From Clostridia bacterium (lineage in GTDB: Bacteria; Bacillota; Clostridia; Oscillospirales; QAMX01), in contig JAFXIT010000065.1 in the NCBI GenBank assembly GCA_017532825.1, positions 1 to 52,631 on the forward strand: a DNA stretch of 52,631 nucleotides. The letters are read 5' to 3'. Under the pieces are notes generated by a model. The model was not told the DNA's origin, made no database searches, and saw only the letters and a list, made by a program, of their open reading frames with translations. Positions 10,210-16,997 of this stretch are shown here, in pieces (position 1 is the stretch's first letter; each line of letters starts with the position of its first letter). Position numbers and translations under genes: made by a program.

Positions 10210-11064
10210 ATGGAACAGATACTTGTTCTGATGAAAAATTCGTTGGATGTTATACGTTGGCAGGACATCCTTGACATACTTCTTATCTGGTTTCTTTTGT
10301 ACAAGATATCTAAGCTGATAAGGGATACAAGTGCCGGACAGGTCGTGAAAGGACTTATCGTTCTCGTGATATTCATGGAAGTCGTGGGATGGCTTCAGCT
10401 TAACGTTATTTACTACCTGCTTTCCAGTGCGCTTCAAATCGGAATTATTGCTCTGATTATTCTGTTCCAGCCGGAGCTCAGGCGTATGCTTGACACTATC
10501 GGACGAAGCCGTTTGCCGGCGCTGTTTACAAACAGTGAAGCAGAGGATCTGCTTGCAAATGAAAATGCCAGATCTATCAACAAGCTCGTCGACACCTGCG
10601 GATATTTTTCCAGAACCCGTACGGGGGCTCTGATCGCCGTTGAGCGTGAAACTAAGCTTGGCGATATTATGAAGAGCGGTACGATGATCGACTCGGAGAT
10701 ATCGGGAGAGCTTCTTAAAAATCTTTTCTATAACAAGGCCCCGCTCCATGACGGAGCCGTTATCATTCGCAAAAACCGCGTAGCCGCTGCGGGCTGTGTT
10801 TTGCCGCTTTCCCTTAATAAAAACCTCAGCCCGGATCTCGGTACTCGCCACAGAGCGGGTGTCGGGCTTAGCGAGAACTCCGATGCCGTTGTTATTATCG
10901 TTTCTGAGGAGACGGGAGCCGTTTCTGTTGCTATAGGAGGACTTCTTAAGCGTAACCTTTCTCCGGAGACCCTTAAGGCTATCCTTACCAAGGAACTGAT
11001 AACAGAGACGGACACCAAGGCAAAGCTTGAAAAGTTCCGCTTTTGGAGGTCGAAGAATAAATGA
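10210..11064 (+). CDS. cdaA: Diadenylate cyclase CdaA (c-di-AMP synthase)
   Basis: The 284-residue protein has about three N-terminal membrane helices (residues 20-90) followed by a DAC (DisA_N) domain. The catalytic motifs are visible: DGA at 181-183 (LHDGAVII) and RHRAG at 213-217 (GTRHRAG). CdaA condenses two ATP to c-di-AMP, which controls potassium and osmolyte transport and cell-wall balance. The ATG at 210 nt past 10000 follows GGAAGAAG; a further in-frame start 27 nt upstream would add residues unlike the family. The stop overlaps the cdaR start by 4 nt (ATGA). Confidence 0.96.
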   Translation: MEQILVLMKNSLDVIRWQDILDILLIWFLLYKISKLIRDTSAGQVVKGLIVLVIFMEVVGWLQLNVIYYLLSSALQIGIIALIILFQPELRRMLDTIGRSRLPALFTNSEAEDLLANENARSINKLVDTCGYFSRTRTGALIAVERETKLGDIMKSGTMIDSEISGELLKNLFYNKAPLHDGAVIIRKNRVAAAGCVLPLSLNKNLSPDLGTRHRAGVGLSENSDAVVIIVSEETGAVSVAIGGLLKRNLSPETLKAILTKELITETDTKAKLEKFRFWRSKNK

Positions 11065-12320
11065 AGCAGCGATTTGAAAAAAGAGACCTCCTGTATTTTC
11101 TTATAACCGGTGTCCTTGCAGTTATAATCTGGTTTGTTGTTCTTGCGCTGATAAATCCGGAGATCAGAATGGATTTTGATGACGTAAAGGTCACCATCAA
11201 GGGCGAGACCGAATTGCTCAACAACAGAGAATACTCTATTTTAAGCTCTACGGATATAACCGTTAACGTAGAGCTGAAGGGAAAACGTAACGCAATGCTG
11301 TCTCTGGAAAAGGAAGACGTAGAGGTCGTTGCCGACGTTTCTTCCATATCCGGGGACGGTGAGAATGTTATTCAGTGTGAGGTAAATACTCCTTACAGTG
11401 AGGACATCGTCGTTACCAATAAAAACCAACTCAAGATAACGGTAGTTGTTGATAAGATAATCGATAAAGAGGTCGACGTTAGGTTGGAGTACAGCGGTTC
11501 TCTTGCTAACGGACTTAAGCTTGGCGAAGGAAGGCTCGAAACCGAGACGATAATGGTCAGAGGACCGCAGTCCGAGGTATCAAAAATATGGTACGCAAGG
11601 GCAACGGCCCCCCTTACGGCCCTTGACGATACTGCATCAATGGAATTACCCATAACTATTATAGACAATTCGGGAGAGCCGATGACGCTGACCTATTCGC
11701 AGGTTCAGACTCAGCAGGTTGCTGCCAACATTAAGGTCCTTCAGGTCGTTGAGGTCCCGTTGAGGGTTACCCTTGTAAGCGGCGGAGGTCTTACCGAGAA
11801 GGAAGTAGATGTCAAGATCACCCCCCAGAAGGTGACGCTTGTCGGAGAAAAAAATCTTCTTTCGGAAATTGAGTTCCTTAATCTCGGAAGGATAGATCTT
11901 GACGGTATAGGAGACAGCCGTACGACCGAAATGCAGTTTTTGCTTTCGTCAGGCATTACCTGTCAGACCGACCGCACCTCGGCAGTCGTTTCTGTTACGG
12001 TTAAGGACATCGTTGTCAGAGAGTTTGCTCTGTCCACCTCTCAGATCAGCGTTACCGGAGCGGATTCCGAATACGACCTCTCTTTCGCTTCGCAGTACGT
12101 CACTATTATGATCCGCGGCAATTCGACCCTGCTTGGCAGGCTGTCTGCACAGGACATATCTGCTACTCTCAGGCTTGCCGATATAGACCTCGTTGAGGGA
12201 GAGCAGCAGTTACCTCTGTCGGTCACCCTCAAAAGCAAGGTCAATGCAACGGTTGTTCCGTCTGACTATACAGTGTCGGTTATTGCTACCCCGTCACAAC
12301 CGCCGGAGGATGTTGAATGA
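11061..12320 (+). CDS. cdaR: CdaR / YbbR-domain regulator of CdaA
   Basis: The 419-residue protein has one N-terminal membrane helix (about residues 11-30) and then a series of YbbR repeats of roughly 80 residues facing outward. Recurrent elements include VDVRLEYSGSLANGLKLGE and VPLRVTLVSGGGLTEKEVDV. CdaR binds CdaA at the membrane and tunes its activity. It overlaps cdaA and the next gene by 4 nt each, so the three are translationally coupled. In many Firmicutes glmM follows; here a FAD oxidoreductase takes that position. Confidence 0.92.
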   Translation: MKQRFEKRDLLYFLITGVLAVIIWFVVLALINPEIRMDFDDVKVTIKGETELLNNREYSILSSTDITVNVELKGKRNAMLSLEKEDVEVVADVSSISGDGENVIQCEVNTPYSEDIVVTNKNQLKITVVVDKIIDKEVDVRLEYSGSLANGLKLGEGRLETETIMVRGPQSEVSKIWYARATAPLTALDDTASMELPITIIDNSGEPMTLTYSQVQTQQVAANIKVLQVVEVPLRVTLVSGGGLTEKEVDVKITPQKVTLVGEKNLLSEIEFLNLGRIDLDGIGDSRTTEMQFLLSSGITCQTDRTSAVVSVTVKDIVVREFALSTSQISVTGADSEYDLSFASQYVTIMIRGNSTLLGRLSAQDISATLRLADIDLVEGEQQLPLSVTLKSKVNATVVPSDYTVSVIATPSQPPEDVE

Positions 12321-13882
12321 GCATAATAGTATCGGGAATATCTCTGCCGATATTTGAAGATGTGAATATTGCCTATAGAAACGCCGCAAGGATATGCGGC
12401 GTTTCTTTGAATGAAGTAGTTGCAAGAGAGTTTAAGTGCTCGGCCGATGCAAGGGGACATATGCCCAAGTTTGTACGTTCGATAGAGCTTGACGGCATAG
12501 AAAATGAGGCAGATATCGTTAAAAAAATTGACAGGCCTAACGTCAAGCTTCATTCGCACATCGATCTTGAAAGTCTCGTAAGTAACCTGCCTCCTTCTTC
12601 GGCAAGACCGATAGTTGTAGGCTTTGGGCCTTCGGGAATGTTTGCGGCACTGACTCTCGCTTTACGTGGCATGGCGCCGATCGTCCTTGAACGCGGCGAG
12701 TGCCTTGAGGAGCGTGACGGCTCGGTAGACATTTTTTACCGCCAAAGAAGATTGAATATCGACAGCAACATACAGTTTGGCGAGGGTGGAGCAGGAGCCT
12801 ATTCCGACGGTAAGCTTACAACGAGAATAAACGATCCGTACTGCGAGGCGGTGCTCGATGCATTTGTAAAAAACGGCGCACCGTCAGACATCCTCCGCAA
12901 TGCAAAACCTCATATCGGTACCGACGTGCTTAAGCCCGTAGTTGTAAATATCAGAAAGCAGATAGAACGCCTGGGCGGCCGTGTGCTCTTTAAAACAAGG
13001 GTAGACGGACTGCTGCTTCGTGCAGGCAGAGTTATAGGCGTTATGACTAACAACGGCGATTTTGAATCCGATGCGGTCATTTTGGCAATCGGTCACAGCG
13101 CAAGGGATACTGCTCAAATACTCTTGGATCTGGGCGTTGAGATCCATCCTAAACCGTTTTCAATGGGAGTAAGGATAGAACATCTGCAGGAAGATCTTGA
13201 CCGCTCCATGTACGGTAAATATGCGGGGAATCCGCTATTGCCAAGCGCAGAGTATCAGCTCTCATATCGAAACGGAGAAAGGGCATGTTACTCCTTTTGC
13301 ATGTGTCCCGGAGGAAGCGTTGTAGCGGCCGCCAGCGAGTATGGACGTGTAGTTACAAACGGAATGAGTCGGCATGCCCGTGACGGTAGAAATGCAAATG
13401 CCGCACTGGCTGTTCCGGTATCCGTTGAAAGCTTTCCCGGTGGAGTCCTTGGGGGAATAGACCTTGCAAGAGGCGTTGAAGCGGCGGCCTTTTTGGCAGG
13501 AGGGAGCGACTATACCGCTCCTGCTCAACTGGTGCGAGATCTTCTTGAAGGGAAACCGTCTCGTTGCGGCGGACGTATTAAGCCGACCTTTCCGATGGGT
13601 GTCAGATGGGGAAGCCTCGAGGGCGTTCTCCCTGACGGATTTACAGATAGCCTAAGAGAAGGACTTTTGTCATTTGCGAAAAGCATCAGATGCTTTGGTG
13701 ACGGGGATGCCGTGATGACAGCCCCTGAAACGCGGACCTCTTCGCCGATACGTATTCCGAGGAATACCGACTTCAGTTCGCTTACATATTCGGGGCTGTA
13801 TCCATGCGGAGAAGGCGCTGGGTATGCAGGAGGAATAATGTCGGCTGCTGTTGACGGTATACGCATTGCAATGTCACTGTAA
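12317..13882 (+). CDS. FAD-dependent oxidoreductase (NAD(FAD)-utilizing dehydrogenase family)
   Basis: This 521-residue protein has a short alpha/beta N-terminal region (about 90 residues) and then a FAD-binding Rossmann fold starting PIVVGFGPSGMFAALTLA. Further family marks are QFGEGGAGAYSDGKLTTRI, a second dinucleotide stretch (VILAIGHSARDT) and a C-terminal FAD-contact region GLYPCGEGAGYAGGIMSAAVDG. It matches the large, poorly characterised clostridial group annotated as FAD-dependent oxidoreductase. The family substrate is unknown. The 4-nt overlap with cdaR places it in the cdaA operon, which may reflect convenience or an envelope link. Confidence 0.85.
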   Translation: MSIIVSGISLPIFEDVNIAYRNAARICGVSLNEVVAREFKCSADARGHMPKFVRSIELDGIENEADIVKKIDRPNVKLHSHIDLESLVSNLPPSSARPIVVGFGPSGMFAALTLALRGMAPIVLERGECLEERDGSVDIFYRQRRLNIDSNIQFGEGGAGAYSDGKLTTRINDPYCEAVLDAFVKNGAPSDILRNAKPHIGTDVLKPVVVNIRKQIERLGGRVLFKTRVDGLLLRAGRVIGVMTNNGDFESDAVILAIGHSARDTAQILLDLGVEIHPKPFSMGVRIEHLQEDLDRSMYGKYAGNPLLPSAEYQLSYRNGERACYSFCMCPGGSVVAAASEYGRVVTNGMSRHARDGRNANAALAVPVSVESFPGGVLGGIDLARGVEAAAFLAGGSDYTAPAQLVRDLLEGKPSRCGGRIKPTFPMGVRWGSLEGVLPDGFTDSLREGLLSFAKSIRCFGDGDAVMTAPETRTSSPIRIPRNTDFSSLTYSGLYPCGEGAGYAGGIMSAAVDGIRIAMSL

Positions 13883-13913
13883 ATAAGATCGGCATAAATA
13901 ATTAAATATTGGG

Positions 13914-13942
13914 TCATAACCATCCTTTTACGGCAATATGAT
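13914..13942 (+). promoter_or_regulatory. Possible sigma-E-like promoter for sipL-spoIVA
   Basis: TCATAAC (13914-13920), a 14-bp gap and AATATGAT (13935-13942) resemble the sigma-E arrangement of an ATA-containing -35 element and a CATACAAT-like -10 element. By my alignment the -10 matches 5 of 8 positions. Transcription would start near 13949, inside the loop of the hairpin at 13918-13973. spoIVA and sipL belong to the mother-cell sigma-E regulon in studied spore formers. The match is imperfect and hand-made. Confidence 0.4.
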
Positions 13943-13973
13943 ATTAACGTATATAAGCCGTGAAAGGATGGTT
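13918..13973 (+). promoter_or_regulatory. Long hairpin sequestering the sipL ribosome binding site
   Basis: Arms 13918-13934 (AACCATCCTTTTACGGC) and 13957-13973 (GCCGTGAAAGGATGGTT) pair over 17 bp with a single T-G wobble around a 22-nt loop. The right arm contains AAAGGATGG, the only plausible ribosome binding site before the ATG at 13981. Only a weak T-tract follows, so it is a poor terminator for the gene upstream. A read-through transcript would carry a hidden ribosome binding site, while a transcript starting in the loop would not. Confidence 0.7.
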
Positions 13974-13980
13974 TTCTGTA

Positions 13981-15525
13981 ATGGACCTGATATTGGCAAA
14001 AAATGAATACCGCTCCGTACAGGTTGTTTTCGACAGTTATGCCGTAACAGAAGAAAGCGGTGATGCGATCGTACCTGATTATTGCCCGGATATGATTCGT
14101 ATAGCCGAAACATCTGCGGAGCTCGAGCTCACAGGAAAGGAAATACGGGGAGGCCGGGTGTTTGCCGAAGGATTGGTCCACGCCGGCGCCATCTATGTTC
14201 CGGAGACTGACTTCGGGATATTCAGTATACCCGTAACAATACCCGTGACACAGACCTTTGACATCTCTGCACTTAACGAAGATAAGATAGAGCAGGTGTC
14301 TGTGAGCGCAGAGATCGTTTCGGTGTCTGCCAGAGAACTTAACCCAAGAAAGGTATCTGTCAAAGCGACGGTTTCTTTTAGGTGTACAGTCTACTCCTCT
14401 GATGTCATAACGCTTTCCACAGATATAGCCGATGCGGAGTTATACGGTGTGGAATACAAGAAGGAACCGGTTTACGGGCAGTACATGACATTTTGTAACG
14501 AAAAGATGTTAAGTATTTCGGACAGCTCGGAGCTTAATGACTTCCGTCCGGGAGAGCTGGAAATACTAAAGCTGTCGTCAACTCCGGAAATAACGGACTG
14601 TAAGCTTATAACCGATAAGATAGTACTAAAGGGTGAGATGTCTGTATCTATGCTCGTTCGTACGGGAGACCAGACAAGACCTGTCGCATCTGCAGAAACG
14701 GTATTTCCGTTTTCGGGAGTAATAGACTGCCGCGGCGTACGTCCCGAAAGTAAAATAAAGCAGTACTGCAGGATCCTTTCGTCAAAGTATAAGATCACGG
14801 AAGAGGCAGGTACCGGCAAAGCTCTGCTTGTAATGAGTGCTGACATTTCTGTGTTTACCGAGGTCTGGGAGGCGCTTGAGGCAGAGATTATCGTAGATGC
14901 GTACGCTGTTAAGAATAATTATGAGCTTAAAAGTATTCCGCTGAGCTTGTCAGGAGGAAATGAAGAGATAACGCTTAAAGAGCAGATCAAGGAAAGTATA
15001 TCGGCGGGGGTGGGTATACGTTCTGTATATTCCTGTTCTGTTAATGCCGCAAACCCCTCGACTCAAAGGGAAGACGGACGTACCAATGCCTGCTGTGATG
15101 CAAAGCTTAAGATAATCTTTGAAGCTGACGACGGTGGAATATATTCGCTTTCAAAAAACATTCCCGTATGCTGTGCAATAGATACAGATACGGAGGTACG
15201 TGCGGTTTACGCTAAAGCGGTTGATGACAGCTTCCACATAAGCGGAAATGAGGATATTGAGCTTAGGTTCTCGGTCGAATTTGTGATCGAACACGGCGGC
15301 ATCCTATCTCTCACACAGGTTGATAGCATTGTTCTTGGAGAAAGTAGCGGAGGCATAAGAACGCCTGCCTTGACGCTGTGTTATGCCGATCCGGATGAAA
15401 AAGTTTGGGATATGGCAAAGAGACTAAGGGCCGCAGCGGCTGATATTGTAAGGGCAAACGGGCTCGCTGATGATTGCCTGCCGCAGGGACGTCTGCTGTT
15501 AGTCCCCAGAGGAGGGAGAAAATGA
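13981..15525 (+). CDS. sipL: SipL-like spore coat/cortex protein (DUF3794 repeats plus LysM)
   Basis: The 514-residue protein is built of repeated DUF3794-type beta domains (for example DAIVPDYCPDMIRIAETSAE near the start and later copies). It ends in a degenerate LysM domain: DEKVWDMAKRLRAAAADI followed by NGLADDCLPQGRLLLVP. This is the layout of Clostridioides difficile SipL, whose LysM binds SpoIVA to anchor the coat to the forespore membrane. The gene lies directly before spoIVA with a 4-nt overlap, which supports the same role. The start at 13981 gives MDLILAKNEY; an upstream start at 13960 would lie inside the hairpin arm. No signal peptide, as expected for a mother-cell cytosolic coat protein. 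Confidence 0.85.
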   Translation: MDLILAKNEYRSVQVVFDSYAVTEESGDAIVPDYCPDMIRIAETSAELELTGKEIRGGRVFAEGLVHAGAIYVPETDFGIFSIPVTIPVTQTFDISALNEDKIEQVSVSAEIVSVSARELNPRKVSVKATVSFRCTVYSSDVITLSTDIADAELYGVEYKKEPVYGQYMTFCNEKMLSISDSSELNDFRPGELEILKLSSTPEITDCKLITDKIVLKGEMSVSMLVRTGDQTRPVASAETVFPFSGVIDCRGVRPESKIKQYCRILSSKYKITEEAGTGKALLVMSADISVFTEVWEALEAEIIVDAYAVKNNYELKSIPLSLSGGNEEITLKEQIKESISAGVGIRSVYSCSVNAANPSTQREDGRTNACCDAKLKIIFEADDGGIYSLSKNIPVCCAIDTDTEVRAVYAKAVDDSFHISGNEDIELRFSVEFVIEHGGILSLTQVDSIVLGESSGGIRTPALTLCYADPDEKVWDMAKRLRAAAADIVRANGLADDCLPQGRLLLVPRGGRK

Positions 15526-16997
15526 TGGATAGAAGCATATATAAGGATATCGCCGAGCGTACGGGCGGAGACATATACATAGGTGTTGTAGGTCCTGTCA
15601 GAACGGGGAAATCTACGTTTATAAAGCGGTTTATGGAAACGGCGGTAATACCGCATATTGATGACGAATATAAGCGTGGCCGAGCCATGGATGAGCTTCC
15701 TCAAAGCGGAGCGGGGCGTACAGTCATGACGGCTGAGCCAAAGTTTATACCTGAAGACGGTGTAAGCATCGCTCTTGACAACGCAACCTTAAACGTTAGA
15801 ATGGTCGATTGCGTAGGGTACATGGTTCCAAGCGCCTTGGGTCAGTTTGAAAACGATATGCCCAGAATGGTGAGGACACCGTGGTCGGAAAACGAGATAC
15901 CTATGGTCGATGCCGCCGAGCTCGGTACACGAAAGGTGATAAGCGACCATGCAACTATCGGTGTGCTTGTAACTACCGACGGAAGTATTACGGAAATTCC
16001 TCGGGAGGAATATGCAGAAGCCGAGGCCCGTGTCGTTGCAGAGTTGAAGGCGTCCGGTAAACCGTTTTTAATGCTTGTCAATTCTGTACATCCAACTGAC
16101 AGCGAGACGGTAGAGCTTGCAAAAAACCTTTGCAGCAGATACGGAGTAACCGCCCTTCCGATAAATGCTCAGCTTATTGATGACGAGGAAATAAAGGATA
16201 TTCTTCGGGGCATTCTTTGGGAGTTTCCTCTTCGTTATGCTGACATTTATCTTCCGCAGTGGTGCGATTCTCTCCCTGCCGATCACTGGCTAAAAGAACG
16301 TCTCTTTGCAGGCATATCAGCTGCCGCAGAAAATATGACGAGGCTTAAGGATGTTGCACTTGCCGCAGAAGCCGCAAGCGGTTGCGATTCGGTTGAGCGC
16401 TGTCGCACCGGAGAGATAAGACTGGGTGAAGGCAGTGCTGATATAGAGGTAGAGATACCGAGAGAGGTCTTTTACGGTATAATAAATGAGCAGACCGGAC
16501 TTGATATAAAAGACGATTCCTCACTGCTGCCGATCTTTACAGAGCTTGCGATGATTAAACGTGCATACAAGAGAGTGGAGACGGCGCTGCTTGAGGTAGA
16601 GCAAAAGGGGTACGGCATAGTTGTTCCGGGTATCGACGAGCTTACACTGGACCCGCCCGAGATGGTAAAGCAGGGGAGCCAGTTCGGTGTCCGTCTGAGG
16701 GCCAGCGCACCATCTATCCATATGATGAGAGCGGATATTCAGACGACCGTTTCACCTGTTGTGGGAAGCGAAAAGCAGTCAGAAGATCTTGTGAATTACC
16801 TTCTCAAGGAATTTGAGGGGGATGTATCCAAAATATGGCAGAGCAACATATTCGGTAAATCGCTGCATGAACTCGTAAATGAGGGTCTTGCAAGCAAGCT
16901 GAATCATCTCCCTCAGGAAGCCAGGGAAAAACTGCGGCATACCATGGAACGGATCATAAACGAAGGAAGCAACGGCCTTATCTGTATCATCCTGTAA
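15522..16997 (+). CDS. spoIVA: Stage IV sporulation protein A (SpoIVA)
   Basis: This 491-residue ATPase is close to the length of Bacillus SpoIVA. Residues 24-31 form the Walker A loop GPVRTGKS, followed by the family stretch FIKRFMETAVIPHI and LNVRMVDCVGYMVPSA (Walker B region). The C-terminus ends NEGSNGLICIIL, as in the family. SpoIVA polymerises with ATP hydrolysis on the outer forespore membrane and forms the coat basement layer. Two adjacent ATGs exist; the first (15522) overlaps the sipL stop by 4 nt and follows GAGGAGGGAGAAA. The gene places the organism among endospore formers. Confidence 0.98.
   Translation: MMDRSIYKDIAERTGGDIYIGVVGPVRTGKSTFIKRFMETAVIPHIDDEYKRGRAMDELPQSGAGRTVMTAEPKFIPEDGVSIALDNATLNVRMVDCVGYMVPSALGQFENDMPRMVRTPWSENEIPMVDAAELGTRKVISDHATIGVLVTTDGSITEIPREEYAEAEARVVAELKASGKPFLMLVNSVHPTDSETVELAKNLCSRYGVTALPINAQLIDDEEIKDILRGILWEFPLRYADIYLPQWCDSLPADHWLKERLFAGISAAAENMTRLKDVALAAEAASGCDSVERCRTGEIRLGEGSADIEVEIPREVFYGIINEQTGLDIKDDSSLLPIFTELAMIKRAYKRVETALLEVEQKGYGIVVPGIDELTLDPPEMVKQGSQFGVRLRASAPSIHMMRADIQTTVSPVVGSEKQSEDLVNYLLKEFEGDVSKIWQSNIFGKSLHELVNEGLASKLNHLPQEAREKLRHTMERIINEGSNGLICIIL

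Follow-up and report, generated by a model that had tools for sequence, protein, structure and literature searches.

A hairpin over the sipL ribosome-binding site probably acts as a translational insulator against read-through in a Clostridia bacterium

The hairpin that precedes sipL in this Clostridia genome probably functions as a translational insulator against RNA that reads through from the genes upstream. The support comes from a long stem, the position of the sipL ribosome-binding site within it, a promoter pattern conserved among relatives, a species-specific match between promoter spacer and ribosome-binding site, and a difference in folding between the two RNAs predicted for the locus. 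Throughout, "the window" refers to the entire stretch of DNA analyzed, 52,631 nucleotides in length.

The genes for CdaA, YbbR and an FAD-dependent protein (positions 10210–13882), sipL (13981–15525) and spoIVA (15522–16997) lie in this order, all on the + strand, with spoIVA overlapping the sipL stop. The gene identities assigned in the initial annotation held: SipL matches PF12673 (E 6.8e-24) and SpoIVA matches TIGR02836, and both lie behind CdaA, YbbR and the FAD protein. The cdaA-ybbR-FAD genes are the likely source of read-through. The upstream neighbor of sipL is co-directional, and a scan for simple terminators (loops of 3–8 nt) listed no terminator-like site between its end at 13882 and the start of the stem at 13918. 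This upstream context was not found at any other sipL that we collected. The usual order in most relatives is rsgA, thiN, spoVM, sipL and spoIVA, with spoVM directly before sipL. The spoVM gene of the window genome (MQIVVVKAPKYLRGVLRLIFGMKRT) lies on another contig (L299:1502-1579, contig C38 near 20757) and has an ordinary terminator behind it.

The stem consists of 17 bp formed by a left arm (13918–13934) and a right arm (13957–13973) separated by 22 nt; it is 94% complementary, with 16 Watson-Crick pairs and one G-U pair. Folding of positions 13890–14010 yielded −39.6 kcal/mol, compared with an average of −19.98 for shuffles (z −5.69), and 0 of 200 shuffles were equally stable; across shuffle tests, z for the hairpin in the window was −5.7 to −6.7. 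These values bear out the near-perfect stem described in the initial annotation, which had also placed the sipL ribosome-binding site in the right arm. There we find GAAAGGA at 13962–13968, 12 nt before the ATG at 13981. Because GAAAGGATG at this position is also kept in the two closest relatives (L006 and L007), GAAAGGA is supported as the real sipL site. The fold of 13890–14010 also revealed an outer helix absent from the initial annotation, in which 13905–13915 pairs over 11 bp with 13984–13994, the latter covering sipL codons 2–5. This helix belongs to read-through RNA only, and in that longer RNA the sipL ATG lies between the inner stem and the outer helix.

To obtain a base rate within the same genome, we surveyed the window together with stretches of 20 contigs, about one fifth of the genome (219 gene starts, 353 kb). 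In this sample sipL was the sole strong site-hiding stem accompanied by a sigma-E-like promoter; the other top matches that we inspected (L283 and L288) resemble ordinary terminators at mis-called starts. On the basis of this sample, and of the other genes in the window and in the loci collected from relatives, we rejected the possibility that such hairpins are a general property of gene starts. A dispersed repeat was also rejected, as the stem sequence occurs in a single copy in the genome. Membership in a known RNA family was rejected as well: among Rfam families (riboswitch or known leader), none matched the sipL leader above its gathering score, and the only match was at chance level.

The left flank and the loop of the hairpin contain a sigma-E-like pair of elements, TCATAAC (−35-like, 13914–13920) and AATATGAT (−10-like, 13935–13942, in the loop), with 14 nt (13921–13934) between them. 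The pair lies where the initial annotation had noted a resemblance to sigma-E promoters, and relatives preserve both its pattern and its spacing. Among relatives from the window's own family, the corresponding pairs, each 20 nt apart, are ACATATC/CATATACA in L006, GCATAAG/AATATAAT in L007, GCATATC/AATATAAT in L008 and GCATATA/AATATGAT in L019, the last sharing all 8 letters of the −10-like element with the window. When the distance was allowed to vary from 14 to 26 nt and a home-made promoter score was applied, 91 of the 180 sipL leaders described below had a high-scoring pair at a start-to-start distance of 20 nt, versus 1 after shuffling. The conserved elements are an ATA-type −35 and a CATA-type −10; the −10 of the window begins with AATA, as it does in several relatives. 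In C. difficile, sigma E has been described as using an ATA-type −35, and transcription of C. difficile sipL was reported to be lost without sigma E (PMC3789822). The sequence pattern thus supports a putative sigma-E promoter whose −35/−10 spacer is formed by the left arm of the stem.

Because the left arm would be the promoter spacer, RNA from sipL's own promoter is predicted to begin in the loop and to be free of the left arm. Judged by the distance to the −10-like element, the start would fall at 13948–13950, downstream of the left arm, a placement to which both the sequence pattern and its conservation point. RNA that enters from cdaA-ybbR-FAD, presumably in growing cells, would hold both arms and fold the sipL site into the 17-bp stem, with the start codon enclosed by the 11-bp outer helix, and sipL would go untranslated. 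RNA started by sigma E at about 13949 would lack the left arm and be translated. The initial annotation had proposed folding these two predicted mRNAs, and the outcome agreed with its expectation. Opening the sipL site costs 17.2 kcal/mol in read-through RNA, in which the stem covers the site, versus 1.6 kcal/mol in RNA from 13949, and the cost of 17.2 kcal/mol was the same for read-through starts at 13600, 13800 and 13871. Opening the site together with the start codon costs about 24 versus 7 kcal/mol.

We then examined sipL leaders from the same order. We collected 227 sipL starts, mainly from Oscillospiraceae, and analyzed 180 leaders that were no more than 70% alike over the 60 nt preceding the start. 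The genomes are unannotated drafts; gene starts and upstream neighbors were assigned with simple rules, and p values derive from 100–500 shuffles. When the region from −90 to −28 was tested for pairing with the region from −27 to +4, using dinucleotide shuffles as the control, 64 of the 180 leaders reached p≤0.05 (9 expected) and 33 reached p≤0.01 (1.8 expected); p≤0.05 was missed by 116. Other genes at the same loci reached these thresholds in 13/185 and 4/185 cases, respectively (sipL versus other genes, Fisher 1.3e-11), and window genes other than sipL showed pairing in 0/24.

Since lineages differ in their register of pairing, we used a swap test rather than fixed-column covariation. For the leaders that carried a promoter pattern, each spacer was compared with its own site and with the sites of other species, omitting the −35 and the start codon (n=132). 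This test gave z −10.4, and z −7.6 when swaps were GC-matched, and the spacer-site pair of the window was the strongest of the set. The surveyed leaders are related and not independent; thinning to 50 very different leaders, a partial remedy, gave z −4.7, or −3.7 without the window. Individually, 35 of 132 spacers matched their site at p≤0.05, and the corresponding counts were 12/132 for the segment upstream of the −35 and 2/41 for the segment after the −10. Examples of matched spacer and site are CCTCTCCCC with GGGGAGAGG (L223 and L224), GGCGTCCTCCT with AGGAGGACGCC (L267), GTCCACGCCT with AGGAGTGGAC (L252), CTCCTTTG with CAAAGGAG (L146) and CTTCCCCGG with CCGGGAAAGG (L057). The letters differ and the spacer-site relation stays the same, as expected for RNA pairing and not for a protein site. 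Spacer and site vary together, which is the kind of compensatory change across relatives that the initial annotation had suggested looking for. Across the order, selection has preserved complementarity in related leaders; within the window's own family, it is seen in the window genome only.

Several artefacts were considered and rejected. Composition was rejected because the signal survives dinucleotide shuffles, spacer-only shuffles and GC-matched swaps, and relatedness because it survives thinning. Complementarity between the CATA of the −35 and the TATG at the start codon was rejected as the sole cause, since the spacer-only test omits both and still gives the same 35 matches.

The spacer signal is concentrated in Oscillospiraceae (24/61), with single cases in other families; outside Oscillospiraceae and unplaced database loci it is weak, with 7/55 leaders at p≤0.05. 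The window itself is the sole case (1/11) in its own family. Pairing seems to have been gained and lost often across these relatives, and because no other member of its family is significant in the spacer test, the window hairpin is probably an independent gain. Upstream orientation was assigned from a SpoVM profile and from direct reading of the upstream ORFs of the closest relatives. A gene for a SpoVM homologue lies directly before sipL on the same strand in 111 of the 180 leaders, 47 of which are paired. The four closest relatives (L006, L007, L008 and L019) have a divergent upstream gene and show no pairing (p 0.38–0.47). Pairing was found in 1/10 leaders with a divergent neighbor versus 48/112 when the window was added to the co-directional set (Fisher 0.049), a contrast that, resting on 10 divergent cases, is suggestive only. 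In B. subtilis, spoVM is itself under sigma E. Because spoVM is the upstream gene in most relatives, silencing in vegetative cells may not be the sole use of the arrangement.

A second case is found at sigG of the window genome (L300:1420-1500, contig C7 near 25940), where GATCCTCCG and CGGAGGATC form a stem with the ribosome-binding site in its right arm. The left arm lies within the 15-nt spacer of GTATA ... GGGTAAACT, a pair like sigma-F/G promoters. TTTTTT follows the stem, directly before the ATG, and because of these six T the sigG stem could also terminate transcription. Among Oscillospiraceae sigG leaders, 9/20 paired at p≤0.05 and 7/20 at p≤0.01, and a spacer-site swap test on 18 pairs entered by hand gave z −4.9.

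The sigG stem bears on an alternative reading of the sipL hairpin, to which we assign a small but real probability: that its main role is that of an intrinsic terminator for the cdaA operon, overlapping the sipL promoter. Polymerase would stop at a U-rich stretch past the right arm, and sporulation RNA, without the left arm, would escape; the outcome would still be insulation, at the step of transcription. This reading would account for TTTTCTGT after the sipL stem and for the lack of any other terminator listed behind the FAD gene, and the T run after the sigG stem of the same genome agrees with it. However, the sipL hairpin has an interrupted U stretch and a 22-nt loop, whereas ordinary terminators here carry T5–T7. 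The terminator scan, which allowed loops of 3–8 nt only, did not list it. In relatives, GA-rich sequence free of T runs usually comes after the right arm, which argues that termination is not what was kept. Termination at the sipL hairpin may also be partial, and translational block and termination could act together there.

The remaining readings, a protein site, a role at the upstream 3' end and chance, are unlikely. There is a very slim probability that a regulator such as SpoIIID binds the inverted repeat as DNA and that no RNA structure is involved; the repeat does overlap the promoter, but its half-sites are 39 nt apart, and the arms differ between lineages yet remain complementary within each, unlike a fixed protein site. 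We give equally little weight to a stem that serves to protect or process the upstream message at its 3' end and whose overlap with the ribosome-binding site is incidental: the stem comes directly after the upstream gene, both here and behind spoVM in relatives, but the co-varying part centers on the promoter spacer and the ribosome-binding site and does not lie past the upstream stop. Chance or a neutral inverted duplication, to which the solitary position of the window within its family might point, is scarcely credible given the shuffle z of the window hairpin and its recurrence in other lineages.

Translational insulation of the kind we propose for sipL has precedents before late phage and sporulation genes, as the initial annotation had stated. 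In phage T4, the early, longer RNAs of gene e, soc, 49 and I-TevI hide the ribosome-binding site; RNA from late promoters, which are located within the structure's 5' strand, lacks it and is translated, with an effect of about 100-fold for gene e by experiment (PMC3014915). As predicted for sipL, the site is hidden in the longer RNA and exposed in RNA from the gene's own promoter. Unlike sipL, the T4 genes use phage late promoters in another host, and their case is proven by experiment whereas that of sipL is known from sequence. For B. subtilis sigG (spoIIIG), PMC5942855 describes a large hairpin that was proposed in 1988 (Masuda) to block translation of RNA from the upstream operon and that cannot form in RNA from sigG's own promoter. 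It shares with sipL a long stem against read-through and a sporulation-promoter RNA free of that stem; it differs in having a sigma F/G promoter behind spoIIGA-sigE, where sipL has a sigma-E-like promoter behind cdaA-ybbR-FAD, and the description consulted mentions no location in the promoter spacer. The same paper describes a small sigG hairpin of five pairs, within the own-promoter RNA, that always dampens translation 2–4 fold (PMC5942855); it too conceals a sporulation gene's ribosome-binding site but, unlike the sipL hairpin, is not a read-through insulator. We found no paper in the open-access literature describing a read-through-insulating hairpin for sipL. The design is already known from T4 gene e and has been proposed for B. 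subtilis sigG; the sipL case appears to be new.

Sporulation genes, switched on at a single time in a single cell, often sit behind growth genes, and it is usually assumed that control of transcription alone keeps them in check. Because relatives re-form the same arrangement with different letters, our data suggest that the hairpin represents a common means of keeping spore genes quiet in growing cells. It is about an even call whether it belongs to a recurrent class of insulators in spore-forming Clostridia, in which the spacer of a sporulation promoter would serve as the anti-Shine-Dalgarno strand. Such a class would have arisen anew on many occasions, at genes preceded by housekeeping or earlier genes (sigma E for sipL, sigma F/G for sigG), leaving only RNA made by the right sigma factor translatable. 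If this is true, the sequence separating the promoter elements also works, as RNA, to lock the ribosome-binding site, leaky transcription becomes harmless, and sequence alone predicts which sporulation genes face read-through. As two short, separate segments match in many species, the idea lends itself readily to testing.

The initial annotation had extended the insulation to the SipL-SpoIVA pair. The layout and the folding difference support insulation of sipL, whose site is hidden, but silencing of the SipL-SpoIVA pair is supported only in part: spoIVA has its own strong ribosome-binding site, AGAGGAGGG (15508–15518), which costs 3.4–6.8 kcal/mol to open. Since this site is not hidden, silence of spoIVA would need coupling or polarity, and spoIVA may be translated from read-through RNA even when sipL is blocked. 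Within 15505–15530 of the window, spoIVA starts inside the sipL stop (ATGATGG). In relatives, spoIVA genes that follow sipL, often with a sigma-E-like promoter of their own, pair no more often than expected (1/24), versus 7/22 where sipL is not in front (Fisher 0.02), a contrast that fits insulation from foreign upstream genes.

In L042 and L088, where sipL is not in front, a strong stem of CCTCCATGCG with CGCATGGAGG lies over the spoIVA ribosome-binding site. The spacer of the sigma-E-like spoIVA promoter in L041, L078, L082, L087, L097, L102 and L112 carries a conserved GCTTATCC[AC]CATA, a sequence similar to a DnaA box (in L041, TTATCCACA).
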